This document shows, in pieces, positions 6,785 through 28,287 of a stretch of DNA of 43,415 nucleotides. Made by a program: the position numbers and the translations under genes. The notes under the pieces were generated by a model. That model saw nothing but the letters and a program-made list of their open reading frames with translations. It searched no databases and had not been told where the DNA came from. Origin of the DNA: Candidatus Cacconaster stercorequi. GTDB taxonomy: Bacteria > Bacillota > Clostridia > Oscillospirales > Oscillospiraceae. Where the stretch lies: NCBI GenBank assembly GCA_018064925.1, contig JAGHUH010000009.1:1-43415 (forward strand). Direction: 5' to 3'. The stretch's first letter is position 1, and every line of letters starts with the position of its first letter.

Positions 6785-7056
6785 TACTACAAGCGATGAT
6801 GGGGAGCAGTAGCCCACCTCCGCCGCGCAAAGAGAGCCGCCGTTTTGGTGCAAGGCGGACACGGCAGGTGCATGGCGAATATCACCCCGGAGCAGCCGGC
6901 TGAACCAACAGTAAGCCCGGACGGCAGAGGGCCGTTATCTCCCCTCCTCCCATCACAGGTGGGATCTGAGCGGCCGCAGTATGCTGCGGCAATAAGAGTG
7001 GTACCGCAGAGGTCTTTTGCGCCTTTGTCTCTTGTAAAAAAGAGGCAAAGGCGTTT
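6785..7056 (+). promoter_or_regulatory. T-box leader (isoleucine) with terminator, controlling ileS
   Basis: T-box leaders sense uncharged tRNA and allow read-through when the amino acid is short. The specifier loop carries ATC, an isoleucine codon, at 6881-6883 in the GAATATCACC context typical of these leaders. The T-box itself, AAGAGTGGTACCGC, is at 6994-7007. Its TGGT pairs with the tRNA 3' end, the final T matching an A discriminator. The leader ends in a strong terminator, GCCTTTGTCTCTT against AAGAGGCAAAGGC, at 7019-7056. The 5' boundary is approximate. Confidence 0.93.
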
Positions 7057-7110
7057 ATTATTTGAAACTCCGCATTTCATAAAAATTCATCATAGATGGA
7101 GGAGATCACT

Positions 7111-9909
7111 ATGGAATACAAAAAGACACTGAATATGCCCAAGAGCGGCTTCCCCATGCGGGCAGGTCTTCCCAAGCGCGAGCCGGATATGCTCAAGCAT
7201 TGGCAGGAGCTGGATCTGTACAACGAGCTGCTGAAAAAGAACGAGGGTAAGCCCCTGTTCAACCTGCACGACGGCCCCCCGTTCTCCAACGGCAACCTGC
7301 ACATGGGTCACGCCCTGAACAAGGCCATTAAGGACTTCATTACCCGCAGCTATGCCATGCGCGGCTACTATACCCCCTATATTCCCGGCTGGGACAACCA
7401 TGGTATGCCCATCGAAAGCGCCATCATTAAGGAGCAGAAGCTGAACCACAAGGCCATGAGCGTGGCCGACTTCCGCTCCGCCTGCCATGATTACGCCGAG
7501 AAGTATGTGAACCTGCAGAGCGAGGGTTTCCAGCGCATGGGCGTGGTGGGTGACTGGGAGCATCCCTACTGCACCATGGATAAGACCTTTGAAGCCGAGG
7601 AAGTCAAAGTATTCGGCGAGATGTACAAGAAGGGCTATATCTACAAGGGCCTGAAGCCCGTGTATTGGTGCTATCACGACGAGACCGCTCTGGCCGAAGC
7701 TGAGATTGAGTACAAGGACGACCCCTGCACCACCGTGTATGTCAAGTTCCCCATGAACGATGATCTGGGCAAGCTGAGCCATCTGGACCACAGCAAGCTC
7801 TTCTTCGTCATCTGGACCACCACCATTTGGACGCTGCCCGGCAACCTGGCCATTGCCCTGCATCCCGACGAGAGCTACGCCATCGTTAAGGCAGAGGGCG
7901 GCGAGATGTATATTATGGCCGAGGCACTGACCGAAAAGGTCATGAAAATTGGCGGCTTTGACAACTACGAGATCGTGGAGACCCACAACGGCGCCTTCTA
8001 TGAAAATATGCTGGCCAGCCATCCCTTCCTGCCCAAGACCTCCCGTCTGCTGCTGGCTGATTATGTTACCATGGATTCCGGTACCGGCTGCGTGCATACC
8101 GCCCCCGGCTTCGGCGCCGATGACTATCAGACCTGCCGCCGCTACGGTATGGACATGGTGGTGCCTGTCAATGATCAGGGCCGCCACACCGACTATGCAG
8201 GCAAGTACGCCGGTATGCTGGTGGAGGAGTCCAACCCCATCATTCTCAGCGACATGAAAGAAGCCGGCTCCCTGTTTGCCAGCGAGGAGATCGTCCACAG
8301 CTATCCCCACTGCTGGCGCTGCAAGCACCCCATCATCTTCCGCGCCACGCCCCAGTGGTTCTGCTCTGTGGACTCCTTCAAGGATGAAGCCACTGCCGCC
8401 TGCGAAAAGGTACGCTGGCTGCCGGCATGGGGCGAGGAGCGCATCAAGAGCATGATCCGCGAGCGCGCCGACTGGTGCATTTCCCGTCAGCGCCGTTGGG
8501 GTCTGCCCATCCCCGTGTTTTACTGCAAGGATTGCGGCAAGCCCATCTGCAACGATGACACCACCAAGTCTGTAGCCGACATCTTCGAGCAGAAGGGCTC
8601 CAACGCCTGGTTCGATATGGAGGCTGAGGAGCTGCTGCCTCAGGGCTTCACCTGCCCCCACTGCGGCAAGAGCGCCGGCTTCGAGAAGGAAACCGACACG
8701 TTGGACGGCTGGTTCGACTCCGGTTCCACCCACTTCGCTTCCATGGAGCGCGATCAGGGCTTCTGGCCCTCCACCGTGTACTTTGAGGGCCTTGACCAGT
8801 ACCGCGGCTGGTTCCAGTCCTCCATGCTGGTGGCCGTTGGCGCGCTGGGCCGCGGCGCACCGTTCAAAGAGTGCATCACTCACGGCTGGACCGTGGACGG
8901 CGAGGGTAAGGCCATGCATAAGTCTTTGGGCAACGGCATGGATCCCAACGAGATTATCAACAAGTACGGCGCCGATCTGCTGCGTCTGTGGGCCGGCAGC
9001 GCTGACTATCATGTGGATGTCCGCTGCTCCGACGAGATCTTCAAGCAGCTCAGCCAGAACTATCTGAAGTTCCGCAACACCAGTAAGTTCTGTCTGGATA
9101 ACCTCAGCGACTTCGATCCTGAAAATCTGGTCGCTCCCGCCGATATGCCCGAGCTGGATAAGTGGGCCATTACCCGCCTGAATCAGCTGATTGAAAAGGT
9201 GTTCGCCTGCTATGACAACTACGAGTTCCATACCATCGCCCACGCCATTAACGACTTCTGCGTGCTGGATTTGTCCTCCTTCTACTTCGACATCATCAAG
9301 GATCGTCTGTACTGCGATGAAAAGGACGGCTTGAGCCGCCGCAGCGCACAGACCGTTCTTTGGCTGATCCTGGATGCCATGACCCGTATGTTCGCGCCCA
9401 TCCTCGCCTTTACCTGCGATGAGATCTGGCTGATGATGCCTCACCGTGCCGGCGATGATGCACGCAATGTCCTGTTCAATGACATGGTACAGCCCTACAC
9501 CGCCTATGCACTGGATGACGACACCATGGAGAAGTGGGCAATTATCGCCAAGCTGCGCCAGGATGTCAACAATGTTCTGGAAGCTGCACGCAATGAAAAG
9601 CGCATCGGTAAGTCTTTGGAGGCTCATGTCAACCTGTACGCCGAGGACGACGAGAACATGGCCATCATGGAAAGCCTGAAGAGCATGGATCTTGCCGACA
9701 TTCTGCTGGTATCCGAGTGCCAGGTGGTGGAAGGCAAGCCCGACAACGCCAACCACGCGGCTACCTTCAACGGCCTGACCGTGGAAGTCATGGAAGCTCC
9801 CGGCACCAAGTGCCCCCGTTGCTGGAAGCACTCCACCGCTGCCGACGCCGAGGGTCTGTGCCCCCGCTGCGCCGCTGTGATGGCTAAGATCCCTCAGATC
9901 GCCGAATAA
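7111..9909 (+). CDS. ileS: Isoleucine--tRNA ligase
   Basis: The enzyme charges tRNA-Ile with isoleucine and edits misactivated valine. The product has 932 residues, normal for the bacterial type. The class I HIGH motif appears as HMGH (64-67) in PPFSNGNLHMGH. The KMSKS loop is AMHKS near 601-605, a relaxed form in which the first lysine is replaced but the catalytic second lysine is kept. A CP1 editing domain lies between them. A C-terminal zinc site has CPRCWKH and CPRCAAV. The frame is open to an ATG at 7096, but that ATG overlaps the GGAGG ribosome-binding site, so ATG 7111 is chosen. The gene is controlled by the T-box at 6785-7056. Its last 40 bases and flank are repeated twice downstream. 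Confidence 0.96.
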   Translation: MEYKKTLNMPKSGFPMRAGLPKREPDMLKHWQELDLYNELLKKNEGKPLFNLHDGPPFSNGNLHMGHALNKAIKDFITRSYAMRGYYTPYIPGWDNHGMPIESAIIKEQKLNHKAMSVADFRSACHDYAEKYVNLQSEGFQRMGVVGDWEHPYCTMDKTFEAEEVKVFGEMYKKGYIYKGLKPVYWCYHDETALAEAEIEYKDDPCTTVYVKFPMNDDLGKLSHLDHSKLFFVIWTTTIWTLPGNLAIALHPDESYAIVKAEGGEMYIMAEALTEKVMKIGGFDNYEIVETHNGAFYENMLASHPFLPKTSRLLLADYVTMDSGTGCVHTAPGFGADDYQTCRRYGMDMVVPVNDQGRHTDYAGKYAGMLVEESNPIILSDMKEAGSLFASEEIVHSYPHCWRCKHPIIFRATPQWFCSVDSFKDEATAACEKVRWLPAWGEERIKSMIRERADWCISRQRRWGLPIPVFYCKDCGKPICNDDTTKSVADIFEQKGSNAWFDMEAEELLPQGFTCPHCGKSAGFEKETDTLDGWFDSGSTHFASMERDQGFWPSTVYFEGLDQYRGWFQSSMLVAVGALGRGAPFKECITHGWTVDGEGKAMHKSLGNGMDPNEIINKYGADLLRLWAGSADYHVDVRCSDEIFKQLSQNYLKFRNTSKFCLDNLSDFDPENLVAPADMPELDKWAITRLNQLIEKVFACYDNYEFHTIAHAINDFCVLDLSSFYFDIIKDRLYCDEKDGLSRRSAQTVLWLILDAMTRMFAPILAFTCDEIWLMMPHRAGDDARNVLFNDMVQPYTAYALDDDTMEKWAIIAKLRQDVNNVLEAARNEKRIGKSLEAHVNLYAEDDENMAIMESLKSMDLADILLVSECQVVEGKPDNANHAATFNGLTVEVMEAPGTKCPRCWKHSTAADAEGLCPRCAAVMAKIPQIAE

Positions 9910-24675: not shown

Positions 24676-24735
24676 TCTGCAGACAAAACAAAATCAGCCA
24701 TTCCGTAGCTCGCAGAACGACTTCCTTCTTCCGTT

Positions 24736-24912
24736 TGAGCAGGTCTCCCGGCTTACGCTTCCCTGACCGCAGACGGCCTTCGGAACTCTCCGCGGCTGAA
24801 TTTCTTCCTGTCTGCGCTCTCCACGCTTACGGTGGCGGTACCGTTCGGGATTTGCACCCGATTCCCTATTCTCCGATGACTTCTGTTACCAAAGTCCCGG
24901 CACTCAAACGCT
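24736..24912 (-). promoter_or_regulatory. Cobalamin riboswitch
   Basis: On the minus strand the B12 box AAGCCGGGAGACCTGCTC lies at 24737-24754. Upstream are GGGAATCGGGTGCAAATCCC, GGTACCGCCACCG and GTAAGCGTGG, all in the order expected of the adenosylcobalamin-type aptamer. A consensus promoter precedes it and a strong terminator follows. This supports repression of the ECF operon by cobalamin. Boundaries are approximate. Confidence 0.93.
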
Positions 24913-24927
24913 GTTTCATTTTTAATG

Positions 24928-25617: not shown

Positions 25618-25648
25618 ATCAGAGCCGCATTGCGGCTCTGATTTTTTT
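25618..25648 (+). terminator. Rho-independent terminator
   Basis: ATCAGAGCCGC and GCGGCTCTGAT form an 11-base-pair stem with an ATT loop, then a T-run. Confidence 0.9.
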
Positions 25649-25716: not shown

Positions 25717-28287
25717 ATGAAAAAAGCCATCCTCGGCATTCTGGCCCATGTGGATGCCGGCAAGACCACACTGGCGGAGGCCATGCTGTATCACACCGGC
25801 GCACTGCGAAAGCTGGGTCGCGTTGACCACGGCAGCACGGCGCTGGACACCCACGATCTGGAACGGGAGCGCGGCATCACCATCTTTTCCAGTCAGGCAC
25901 AGTTCGCCACCGGTGAGCTGGAGGTGACGCTGCTGGACACCCCCGGCCATGTGGATTTTTCCGCGGAGACCGAGCGTACGCTGCAGGTGCTGGATTATGC
26001 CGTGCTGGTGATTAACGGCGCCGAGGGCGTACAGGCGCACACCCATACCCTGTGGCGGCTGCTGGCGCTTTATCAGGTGCCCACCTTCCTGTTCATCACC
26101 AAAATGGATTTCGCCCGCCACAGCCGCGATGCGCTGATCCGGGAGGTACAGCGAGAGCTGGATGAAAACTGCATGGATTTCAGTCCGGATACACAGGAGG
26201 CACGCATGGAAGGTCTTGCCATGTGCCGGGAGGATCTGCTGGAGCGTTATCTTGACGGCGAAGCCATCTCCGATGAGGACACCGCGGAACTGATTGCCAC
26301 CCGCACCATCTTCCCCTGCTATTTCGGCTCGGGATTAAAGCTGGACGGTATCGAGGAATTTCTGCAGGGTCTGGAACGCTTTGTACAGGAGCCGACCTAT
26401 CCCGATGCCTTCGGCGCACGGGTCTTCAAGATCAGCCGTGATGCCCAGGGCAACCGCCTGACCCATCTGAAAATCACCGGCGGCACGCTCCATGTGAAGG
26501 ACACGGTGGACTGCCGCGGCACACAGGAAAAAATCAACCAGATCCGATTGTATACCGGCAACAAATTCATCACAGTGGATGCACTCCCCGCCGGCAGCGT
26601 CTGCGCGGTTACCGGATTGACGGCGGCCATGGGCGGCATGGGATTGGGACATGAGGCGTCCGCCGCCAAGCCGGTGCTGGAGCCGGTGATGAATTACCGC
26701 ATCGTGCTGCCGCCCGACTGCGACGCCCGCACCATGCTGCCCAAGCTGCATCTTCTGGAGGAGGAAGACCCGCTGCTGCGCATCACATGGAACGAGCATT
26801 TGCAGGAGATCCATGTGGGGCTGATGGGCGCGGTGCAGACGGAAATTCTGAAAAGCCTGATCGCCCAGCGCTTCGGCGTGGAGGTGGTCATCGACTGCGG
26901 GCAGGTGATGTACCGGGAGACCATTGAACACGAGGTGGAGGGCGTGGGACACTACGAACCTCTGCGCCACTATGCCGAGGTACATCTTCTGCTCTCTCCC
27001 CTGCCCCAGGGCAGCGGATTGGTCTTTGACACGGCCTGCAGCGAGGATGTGCTGGATCGCAACTGGCAGCGCCTGATCCTCACCCATCTGACGGAAAAAC
27101 CGCATCTGGGCGTGCTCACCGGCTCGCCCATTACGGATATGAAGATCACGCTGGCCGCCGGCCGCGCCCACATCAAGCACACCGAGGGCGGCGATTTCCG
27201 ACAGGCCACCTACCGCGCCGTGCGGCAGGGGCTGATGCAGGCACAGTCCAAATTGCTGGAACCGTACTATGACTTTCGGCTGGAAGTCCCTGCATCGCAA
27301 ATCGGGCGGGCCATCAGCGATATCCGGATGCGCAGCGGTACCTTTTCTCCGCCGGAGGACACCGGAGAGATGCAGCTTTTGCGGGGCACAGCACCGGTCA
27401 CCACGATGAATGACTATGCTGCCGAGGTGGCTTCCTACACCGGCGGACGGGGGCGGCTGAGCTGTCAGGTAGCCGGCTACGGGCCGTGCCACAACCCGGA
27501 GGAGGTAATCGAGCGACTCGGCTATGAAGCACAGAGCGATCTGGACAACACGCCGGACTCCGTATTCTGCGCCCACGGCGGCGGCTTTACCGTCAAGTGG
27601 GACAAGGTGCCGGAGTATATGCATCTGGAAAGCTGTCTTTCCCGTCCGGAGCAGCCCTACACCCCGCAGGTCAACCGACAAAATCTCCATCTGGATGACA
27701 AGGAGCTGGAGGCCATCATGGAGCGGGAGTTCGGTCCCATCCGCCGCCCTGTCTATTCCGCGGCACGCGTCAATGCCGCGCCGGACAAGTCCGTCACACT
27801 GCGGGAAACGCGGCGGCATCTCATTGTGGACGGGTACAATGTGATTTTCGCCTGGGACGGTCTGCATCAGCTGGCCGAAGAGGATCTGGCCGCGGCGCGG
27901 GATCGGCTGATGGATATTCTGTGCTCCTGGAGCGCTTTCACCCACCATCAGGTGGTGCTGGTATTCGACGGCTACAAGGTACCCGGCGGTACCGGAGAAC
28001 GATTTGACCACCGGGGCATCCATGTGGTCTACACCCGTGAGCACGAAACCGGCGATATGTATATCGAGCGGCTGCTGCAGGACATCGGCAAAAATGAGCA
28101 GGTGCGCGTGGTGACCTCCGACGCCCTGATCCAGCTTTCCGCTGTGCGCTCCGGCGTACTGCGGATGTCCGCGGCGGAATTTGAGCGGGAGGTCAATGCC
28201 TCCAACGCAGAGGTACAGCAAATTCTGCGGGAAATTCAGGGCCGCAAGCAGGGCATTCCCCTATCCGAGCAGCTAAAAAAGAACTGA
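25717..28287 (+). CDS. TetM/EF-G-like translational GTPase fused to a C-terminal Rae1/YacP-like NYN nuclease domain
   Basis: The 856-residue protein joins two ribosome-linked families. Residues 1 to about 650 form a TetM/EF-G-type factor: G1 AHVDAGKTT (10-18), G2 RGITI (52-56), G3 DTPGH (74-78) and G4 TKMD (128-131; usually NKxD). Domains II to V follow and end in a TetM-like GRLSCQVAGY segment. Residues about 700-840 match YacP/Rae1: HLIVDGYNVIFAW with the first catalytic Asp, VLVFDGYK, YTREHETGDMYIERL and VVTSDALIQ. Rae1 of Bacillus subtilis is a ribosome-associated endonuclease cutting mRNA in the A site, while TetM-type GTPases bind at the EF-G site. The fusion therefore suggests a GTP-controlled mRNA cleavage or ribosome-rescue factor; this is inference. 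Automated annotation would probably call it tetracycline resistance, which the extra domain argues against. The start is ATG 25717 after AAGGCGGTG. Confidence 0.9.
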   Translation: MKKAILGILAHVDAGKTTLAEAMLYHTGALRKLGRVDHGSTALDTHDLERERGITIFSSQAQFATGELEVTLLDTPGHVDFSAETERTLQVLDYAVLVINGAEGVQAHTHTLWRLLALYQVPTFLFITKMDFARHSRDALIREVQRELDENCMDFSPDTQEARMEGLAMCREDLLERYLDGEAISDEDTAELIATRTIFPCYFGSGLKLDGIEEFLQGLERFVQEPTYPDAFGARVFKISRDAQGNRLTHLKITGGTLHVKDTVDCRGTQEKINQIRLYTGNKFITVDALPAGSVCAVTGLTAAMGGMGLGHEASAAKPVLEPVMNYRIVLPPDCDARTMLPKLHLLEEEDPLLRITWNEHLQEIHVGLMGAVQTEILKSLIAQRFGVEVVIDCGQVMYRETIEHEVEGVGHYEPLRHYAEVHLLLSPLPQGSGLVFDTACSEDVLDRNWQRLILTHLTEKPHLGVLTGSPITDMKITLAAGRAHIKHTEGGDFRQATYRAVRQGLMQAQSKLLEPYYDFRLEVPASQIGRAISDIRMRSGTFSPPEDTGEMQLLRGTAPVTTMNDYAAEVASYTGGRGRLSCQVAGYGPCHNPEEVIERLGYEAQSDLDNTPDSVFCAHGGGFTVKWDKVPEYMHLESCLSRPEQPYTPQVNRQNLHLDDKELEAIMEREFGPIRRPVYSAARVNAAPDKSVTLRETRRHLIVDGYNVIFAWDGLHQLAEEDLAAARDRLMDILCSWSAFTHHQVVLVFDGYKVPGGTGERFDHRGIHVVYTREHETGDMYIERLLQDIGKNEQVRVVTSDALIQLSAVRSGVLRMSAAEFEREVNASNAEVQQILREIQGRKQGIPLSEQLKKN

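Follow-up and report, generated by a model that had tools for sequence, protein, structure and literature searches.

A conserved clostridial fusion of an EF-G-like translational GTPase with a Rae1/YacP-type NYN domain

Architecture of the fused gene

The DNA analyzed here (the window) is a stretch of 43,415 nucleotides from Candidatus Cacconaster stercorequi, a member of the class Clostridia (contig JAGHUH010000009.1, positions 1 to 43,415, forward strand). It carries an open reading frame (ORF) in which a translational GTPase of the EF-G/Tet type is joined to an NYN nuclease domain of the Rae1/YacP type (Table 1). The fused domain is the only NYN_YacP protein found in nearly all carriers of such a fusion, and it is this substitution for a free Rae1, almost without exception, that we consider worth following. 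A first-pass annotation, made from the sequence alone, had read the product as an EF-G-type G domain and domains II to V followed by a full NYN domain. Pfam confirmed this domain make-up, with all six domains of the protein exceeding the curated cut-offs. The ORF begins with ATG, and AAAGGCGGTG can be read in the sequence directly 5' of it. Alignment of the GTPase revealed the P-loop, switch I, switch II, G4, and G5. As had been noticed at first pass, G4 reads TKMD rather than NKxD. This is a minor variant: T stands at that position in 8 of 27 fused rows and N in 19, and N stands there in 18 of 18 rows from relatives that end without an NYN domain (NYN-less proteins).

Could the fused frame have arisen by chance or by an error of assembly? 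Relatives 49 to 69% identical to the window protein retain the fused frame together with all four NYN aspartates, and fused frames of about 840 to 960 amino acids recur across genomes of the class (three measure 1078 to 1190 amino acids, and 13 are shorter pieces). Because the same architecture is found in many genomes, we rejected both a chance fusion and an assembly or frame artifact, the second of which the first-pass annotation had raised. The fusion is real and conserved, and its architecture has already been published.

The NYN domain forms the C terminus of the 856-residue chain and not a free single-domain protein. It matched NYN_YacP at 146.5 bits (Pfam cut-off, 24.6), and the motifs HLIVDGYN, VFDGYK, HETGD, and VVTSDALIQ all occur in the translation. 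A phmmer search with the NYN part matched Bacillus subtilis YacP (PDB 5mq8 and 5mq9) with an E value of 2.6e-22 and 82.8 bits over 153 residues; on this alignment, counted by hand, D705, D751, D780, and D802 stand opposite YacP D7, D53, D81, and D104. None of the four aspartates varies among the 48 rows of alignment A2, which holds fused proteins and covers 47 of 54 related loci (L034, L040, L045, L071, L075, L078, and L079 were excluded for short or unclear frames or starts). The four are likewise invariant in 38 of 38 fused rows and 31 of 31 standalone NYN rows, in agreement with the earlier assignment of a Rae1-type NYN domain with intact catalytic aspartates. Alignment A1 comprised 35 of the 54 related loci and two plasmid loci.

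To which family does the GTPase belong? The window chain scored 419.5 bits against the NCBIfam model tet_protect (cut-off, 775), 234.2 bits against Tet(M) (cut-off, 1420), and 281.8 bits against EF-G TIGR00484 (cut-off, 659.4). None of these cut-offs was reached, and on these grounds we rejected both tetracycline resistance protein and canonical EF-G as labels. Among PDB entries, the best matches of the whole chain were TetO (255 bits) and TetM (251 bits), with EF-G just below at 241 bits, whereas residues 395 to 590 alone matched EF-G best (71 bits versus 57 bits for TetM). Loop III of domain IV mostly reads GRAHxKHT(E/S)GGDFR in these proteins, compared to GLYYSPVSTPADFR in tet(M); KHTEGGDFR thereby replaces SPVSTPADFR of tet(M), and most positions are invariant or almost invariant in 27 fused and 18 NYN-less rows. 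At the tip of this loop, H485 aligns with H573 of Thermus thermophilus EF-G (counted by hand on the alignment), and 26 of 27 fused rows and 17 of 18 NYN-less rows retain the EF-G-type histidine. Loop I of domain IV, GHYEPLRHYAEVH, is also peculiar to the group.

Domain V is followed by a 55-residue extension, GYxPCHN...SVFCxHGAGFxVKWDKVPEYMH, in which C32, W42, and H50 (alignment numbering) are invariant in 29 rows; in a 45-row set, one NYN-less row carries G at the position of the Trp. AlphaFold2 predicted the extension to be structured, with a predicted local distance difference test score (pLDDT) of 81 to 89 by block. No Pfam family matched the extension with its conserved Cys, Trp, and His, and a profile built from it gave only chance-level matches in the PDB (E values of 0.15 and above). 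In the NYN-less proteins, the chain stops no more than a few residues past the extension, although a few have a short tail. We obtained 17 of them from 17 genomes after fetching 20 regions, at 640 to 660 amino acids with one of 724 (of the other three regions, the one from G221 contained a fused gene whose frame is broken, and no frame was obtained for G034 or for the second copy of G121); Ligilactobacillus salivarius pMP118 carries a further NYN-less member. Judged by sequence, with domain IV loops and a 55-residue extension of its own, the GTPase (here called the factor) is a subfamily of its own. Canonical EF-G gave no match in the genome assembly of the window, which is 88% complete. The only other EFG_IV protein found there (L184, G000:C21:47500-50700) is an EF-G paralogue (PRK12740.1-5) whose G4 is NRTE.

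The linker from H636 to the DGYN motif spans 67 to 129 residues (median, 71; 38 rows). The first-pass annotation had suggested predicting the structure of the whole chain. An AlphaFold2 model made from 48 sequences (mean pLDDT, 80.2; predicted template modeling score [pTM], 0.58) delivered an EF-G-like part and a mostly confident NYN domain (63 to 92 in 10-residue blocks) but not the placement of one against the other. In this model, the linker is loose at residues 641 to 700 apart from a helix at 661 to 672. Residues of this island are conserved (E663 in 37, L664 in 35, I667 in 36, and G673 in 35 of 38 rows), and it is a possible candidate for a docking element. All 50 PDB matches listed by Foldseek were of the EF-G/EF-2 type, with TM-scores by query of 0.34 to 0.57.

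Distribution and ancestry of fused and separate NYN genes

Our main survey covered 391 genomes of the class Clostridia, searched with profiles for NYN_YacP (PF05991) and for the extension. The PF05991 search of 14 control genomes gave two matches, in B. subtilis and S. elongatus, as expected. NYN_YacP was matched in 249 of the 391 genomes and exceeded the cut-off in 248. Of these 248, 140 have it in a fused frame and 107 in a separate frame; the remaining one, G285, had no listed frame and no extension match. Among the 140 fused frames are 13 short pieces of 295 to 789 amino acids, counted as fused since the extension matched in the same contig and frame. One gene listed as separate, in G224, is a fusion split by the ends of two contigs, so that the final tally is 141 genomes with a fused and 106 with a separate NYN. 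The first-pass annotation had asked whether such genomes lose a separate yacP, and only one of the 141 fused genomes (G330) has a separate copy as well. Second NYN matches in G136, G201, and G242 fall under the cut-off, and G133, a genome 61% complete, holds two different fused copies on different contigs (L177 and L178). Fused copy only was also the result for the window's own genome, at its completeness of 88%. The exclusion of fused and separate copies gave a Fisher P value of 2.5e-24, with G285 counted as separate and kinship uncorrected. A second sample, drawn from the phylum, contained the factor in 18 of 249 genomes; the 13 phylum-draw genomes beyond the class sample had exactly one NYN each, 11 of them fused and 2 separate. 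Broken-frame fusion genes were seen twice, in the single-contig genome G221 (L160) and on contig C121 of G341, where the frame changes between the extension and the NYN domain.

Fused and separate genes occur in close relatives. The genera g34, g101, and g39 each contain genomes of both kinds, and six mixed families, identified by eye from family codes, comprise 41 genomes with a fused gene and 12 with a separate one, one genome being counted in both. Comparison of related genomes suggests that the free nuclease gave way to the fused form. The extension profile placed the factor in 164 of the 391 genomes, including all 140 with an NYN frame classed as fused. An NYN-less factor was found in 23 genomes, 15 with a separate NYN and 8 without any. 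Because only 15 of these 23 have a separate NYN, and 11 of the 15 belong to a single family (f44), the Rosetta-stone link between factor and NYN is weak.

The NYN tree was built from 38 fused rows and from 31 of the separate genes of about 107 genomes (those whose loci had been retrieved), using NYN_YacP rows only and no outgroup. All 38 fused rows, together with the separate NYN of G243, fell on one side of a branch with support of 95/99 (bootstrap not settled, midpoint root), and the tree requires at least two changes of state (bootstrap range, 2 to 3). Separate genes of families f25, f26, f30, and f57 were placed elsewhere than this group. The factor tree (27 fused and 18 NYN-less rows) was made by a quick method and has long outgroup branches; its row EFG is the EF-G paralogue PRK12740.1-5, which served as a distant outgroup only and sits on a very long branch. 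Fused and NYN-less members formed one group that excluded tet(M) and a tetB(P)-like protein, with support of 93 in the Shimodaira-Hasegawa-like approximate likelihood ratio test (SH-aLRT). The 27 fused rows grouped with the NYN-less L. salivarius protein (SH-aLRT 89, not starred), whose position among them reads, on this tree, as a loss of the NYN domain. These data fit a single fusion, its later spread or inheritance, displacement of the older rae1, and one separation, the order of events not being proven.

In G243 (L024 and L166), a fused-type NYN is a free gene and the factor belongs to the NYN-less branch, so that the two parts occur naturally apart; no factor remnant was found in the stretch examined around the free NYN. 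G332, a genome without the factor, encodes NYN_YacP in a 342-amino-acid frame (L170) that sits on a long branch of the NYN tree and is perhaps a longer form of Rae1.

Genomic surroundings

The neighbors of the fusion gene are ordinary genes, and the locus is apparently chromosomal. We compared the neighborhoods of 54 related loci, 31 of which include both flanks: the transporter ATPase found a match in 9, CbiQ in 1, the F420-ligase-like protein in 1, and the remaining window neighbors in none. An operon-partner or toxin-antitoxin context was considered; the neighbors are not conserved. The two terminator-like sites found in the region compare with 2.5 expected in shuffled sequence, so they are weak evidence. 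From the upstream hairpin to the start codon there are 74 bases, versus an annotated leader of 117 bases before a tet(M). In the same window, a cobalamin riboswitch lies upstream of the CbiQ/ECF transporter operon that adjoins the fusion, and a T-box leader precedes an ORF for a class I aminoacyl-tRNA synthetase.

Table 1. Positions of the fusion, its parts, and other features in the window
Feature	Positions	Strand	Description or basis
Fusion ORF	25717..28287	+	856 aa; EF-G/Tet-like translational GTPase and Rae1/YacP-type NYN domain
GTPase domain GTP_EFTU, residues 5-224	25729..26388	+	Pfam; G4 = TKMD
Domain II EF-G_D2, residues 233-302	26413..26622	+	Pfam
Domain III EFG_III, residues 322-392	26680..26892	+	Pfam
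Domain IV EFG_IV, residues 395-510	26899..27246	+	Pfam
Domain IV loop III, residues 482-495	27160..27201	+	GRAHIKHTEGGDFR; alignment
Domain V EFG_C, residues 512-593	27250..27495	+	Pfam
C-terminal extension of the GTPase subfamily	27475..27639	+	Alignment A3; conserved, also in NYN-less relatives; without Pfam match
Helix island within loose linker, residues 661-675	27697..27741	+	DKELEAIMEREFGPI; conserved; AlphaFold2
NYN domain, Rae1/YacP type, residues 702-853	27820..28275	+	Asp 705, 751, 780, 802; Pfam, alignment
Terminator-like hairpin upstream of fusion	25618..25642	+	74 bases before start codon
Terminator-like hairpin at fusion stop codon	28287..28316	-	Listed on this strand; near-palindromic
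Cobalamin riboswitch	24721-24922	-	
T-box leader	6787-7035	+	
Class I aminoacyl-tRNA synthetase ORF	7096-9909		

A phage or plasmid origin was likewise considered, using PLSDB, phage-labeled records, and viral contigs. In PLSDB, coverage of the query reaches 80% or more in two records, each a large Clostridia replicon. Of the three plasmid relatives listed, one fused protein is named "translation factor GTPase family protein", and another fused protein and an NYN-less one are named "TetM/TetW/TetO/TetS family". The fusion also occurs in two "Bacteriophage sp." records that are unverified, MT835514 and MT835563. In MT835514 (L241), genes for FeoB, a class I tRNA synthetase, a RelA/SpoT-like protein, and other bacterial genes lie beside it, and this DNA is probably bacterial; for MT835563, a phage or a bacterial origin could not be decided. 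None of the 49 viral-contig loci matched past residue 642 of the query.

Proposed role and comparison with known systems

B. subtilis Rae1 is a ribosome-associated endonuclease that acts in the A site, and domain IV of EF-G-type factors works in the same site. The reading that we favor, and regard as evenly poised between right and wrong, is that the fusion is a translation factor bearing the sole Rae1 of the cell, with which it cleaves mRNA on ribosomes that have paused. We infer that the fusion binds ribosomes, and likewise the sequence of steps, its coupling to GTP, and its target ribosomes. The GTPase part would bind paused or stalled ribosomes, domain IV would visit the A site, and GTP hydrolysis would reset and release the factor. 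Held at high local concentration, the tethered NYN domain could then enter the A site once domain IV has left it, on that ribosome or on a neighboring one, and cut the mRNA, which would lead to ribosome rescue and decay of the message. A bolder version, which we advance only as a tentative possibility, sees the fusion as a translational GTPase with an A-site nuclease of its own. In much of the Clostridia, the free RNase Rae1 would have been superseded by this GTP-driven surveillance factor, which would cut mRNA as GTP turnover passes the A site from domain IV on to NYN.

Several points weigh against the favored reading. Domain IV and NYN/Rae1 in one A site would clash on a single ribosome. Since the two can hardly occupy it together, the placement of the nuclease directly in the decoding center, as proposed at first pass, survives only in part, and sequential action or a neighboring ribosome would have to be invoked. 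The two halves do not need each other: in 8 of the 391 genomes the factor occurs with no NYN at all (in G237 as a 293-amino-acid frame only), and 91 genomes with a separate NYN carry no such factor. The mutual exclusion is partly shared ancestry, and in the six mixed families 10 of the 12 separate-gene genomes are without the factor altogether; gain and loss of the whole fusion gene therefore explain the exclusion as well as a functional link does. At a pTM of 0.58, the model does not predict where NYN lies with respect to the factor, and since no NYN protein appeared among the 50 Foldseek matches listed, the NYN fold is assigned from sequence.

The fusion might instead be a tether and nothing more: an EF-G-like accessory factor with a task of its own, which merely holds NYN near ribosomes while the two activities stay uncoupled. 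NYN-less members, both those beside a separate NYN (15 of 391 genomes) and those in genomes without any, speak for this explanation, as do the NYN-less L. salivarius protein among the fused rows and the long, loose linker. Retention of the fusion over many families and the conserved helix island of the linker hint at more than a passive tether, and we consider this explanation rather unlikely.

Does the fusion confer resistance to tetracycline or another drug by ribosomal protection, with or without RNase action? The whole chain finds its best matches in Tet proteins (TetO, TetM, and the tet_protect model), one fused and one NYN-less relative bear Tet-family product names, and resistance has been suggested in print, in the section on these fusions in Atkinson 2015 (PMC4342817). 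However, the tet_protect score is far under its cut-off, loop III of tet(M) is replaced, with the EF-G-type histidine kept in nearly all rows, residues 395 to 590 match EF-G better than TetM, the distance from hairpin to start codon is shorter than the tet(M) leader, and the neighbors are ordinary. We judge resistance improbable; the failed cut-offs, the different loop III, and the short upstream gap also led us to abandon the first-pass "TetM-like" as a functional label. That a fusion product is named TetM/TetW/TetO/TetS family suggests that resistance may not be the function of some Clostridia genes so named, a point that would bear on resistome counts.

Equally improbable in our estimation is a role in RNA maturation or ribosome quality control, in which NYN would trim or cut rRNA or tRNA on assembling or damaged ribosomes and not mRNA in the A site. 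In its favor, an EF-G-fold factor would deliver NYN to ribosomal subunits, and an early proposal for NYN domains, as cited in that part of Atkinson 2015 (PMC4342817), points the same way. Against it, PMC12320835 and PMC8266666 describe the closest characterized sequence relative, B. subtilis YacP/Rae1, as an endonuclease of the A site. Toxin-like shut-off of translation was also raised at first pass. A nuclease joined to a ribosome factor could be toxic if unleashed, but this reading found no support here and is highly implausible, given a single copy in nearly all carriers, no conserved neighbor over the 54 related loci, a fusion that stands where other genomes have a separate NYN, and a B. 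subtilis Rae1 that is called non-essential.

If the fusion is a factor that carries the cell's Rae1, a natural EF-G-like fusion in place of the free protein points to the kind of ribosomal partner able to recruit Rae1. The replacement of a free by a fused nuclease makes a clear experiment possible, and a single fusion protein lets recruitment, GTP hydrolysis, and cleavage be separated by mutation.

The clostridial Tet-NYN fusions of Atkinson 2015 (PMC4342817) are very probably the same family. As in the window protein, a Tet-type GTPase is followed by a YacP-like NYN RNase domain; the section concerned gives ten Clostridiales species, files the fusion under Tet, and offers it as a possible resistance mechanism. 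Our analysis adds the subfamily features, the distribution, the grouping of the fused NYN domains, and the exclusion of a separate Rae1. A literature search found no other paper that treats the fusion (the main Rae1 papers lay outside the search and may mention it), and the fused/separate exclusion, the fused-NYN grouping, the GTPase subfamily features and NYN-less forms, and the failed Tet and EF-G cut-offs were not found in that search.

Rae1, an A-site endonuclease according to the pertinent passages of PMC12320835, PMC8266666, and PMC10100781, has the same four aspartates and overall sequence as the window NYN; the B. subtilis protein is free, with a PDB chain of 181 residues, whereas the window NYN ends an 856-residue GTPase. 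TetM and TetO share with the window protein the five-domain EF-G architecture and the G motifs and are its best whole-chain PDB matches, at about 30% identity among the labeled matches listed (29% for an NYN-less relative); they differ in loop III and in having neither the extension nor NYN, and the window protein stays under their curated cut-offs. EF-G and its paralogues, such as the ribosome-bound EF-G2 of B. thetaiotaomicron (8dmf), have the EF-G fold in common with it, and EF-G has H573 at the loop III tip where the window protein has its aligned histidine. Compared to EF-G, the window protein falls under the TIGR00484 cut-off and has a loop I and an extension of its own.

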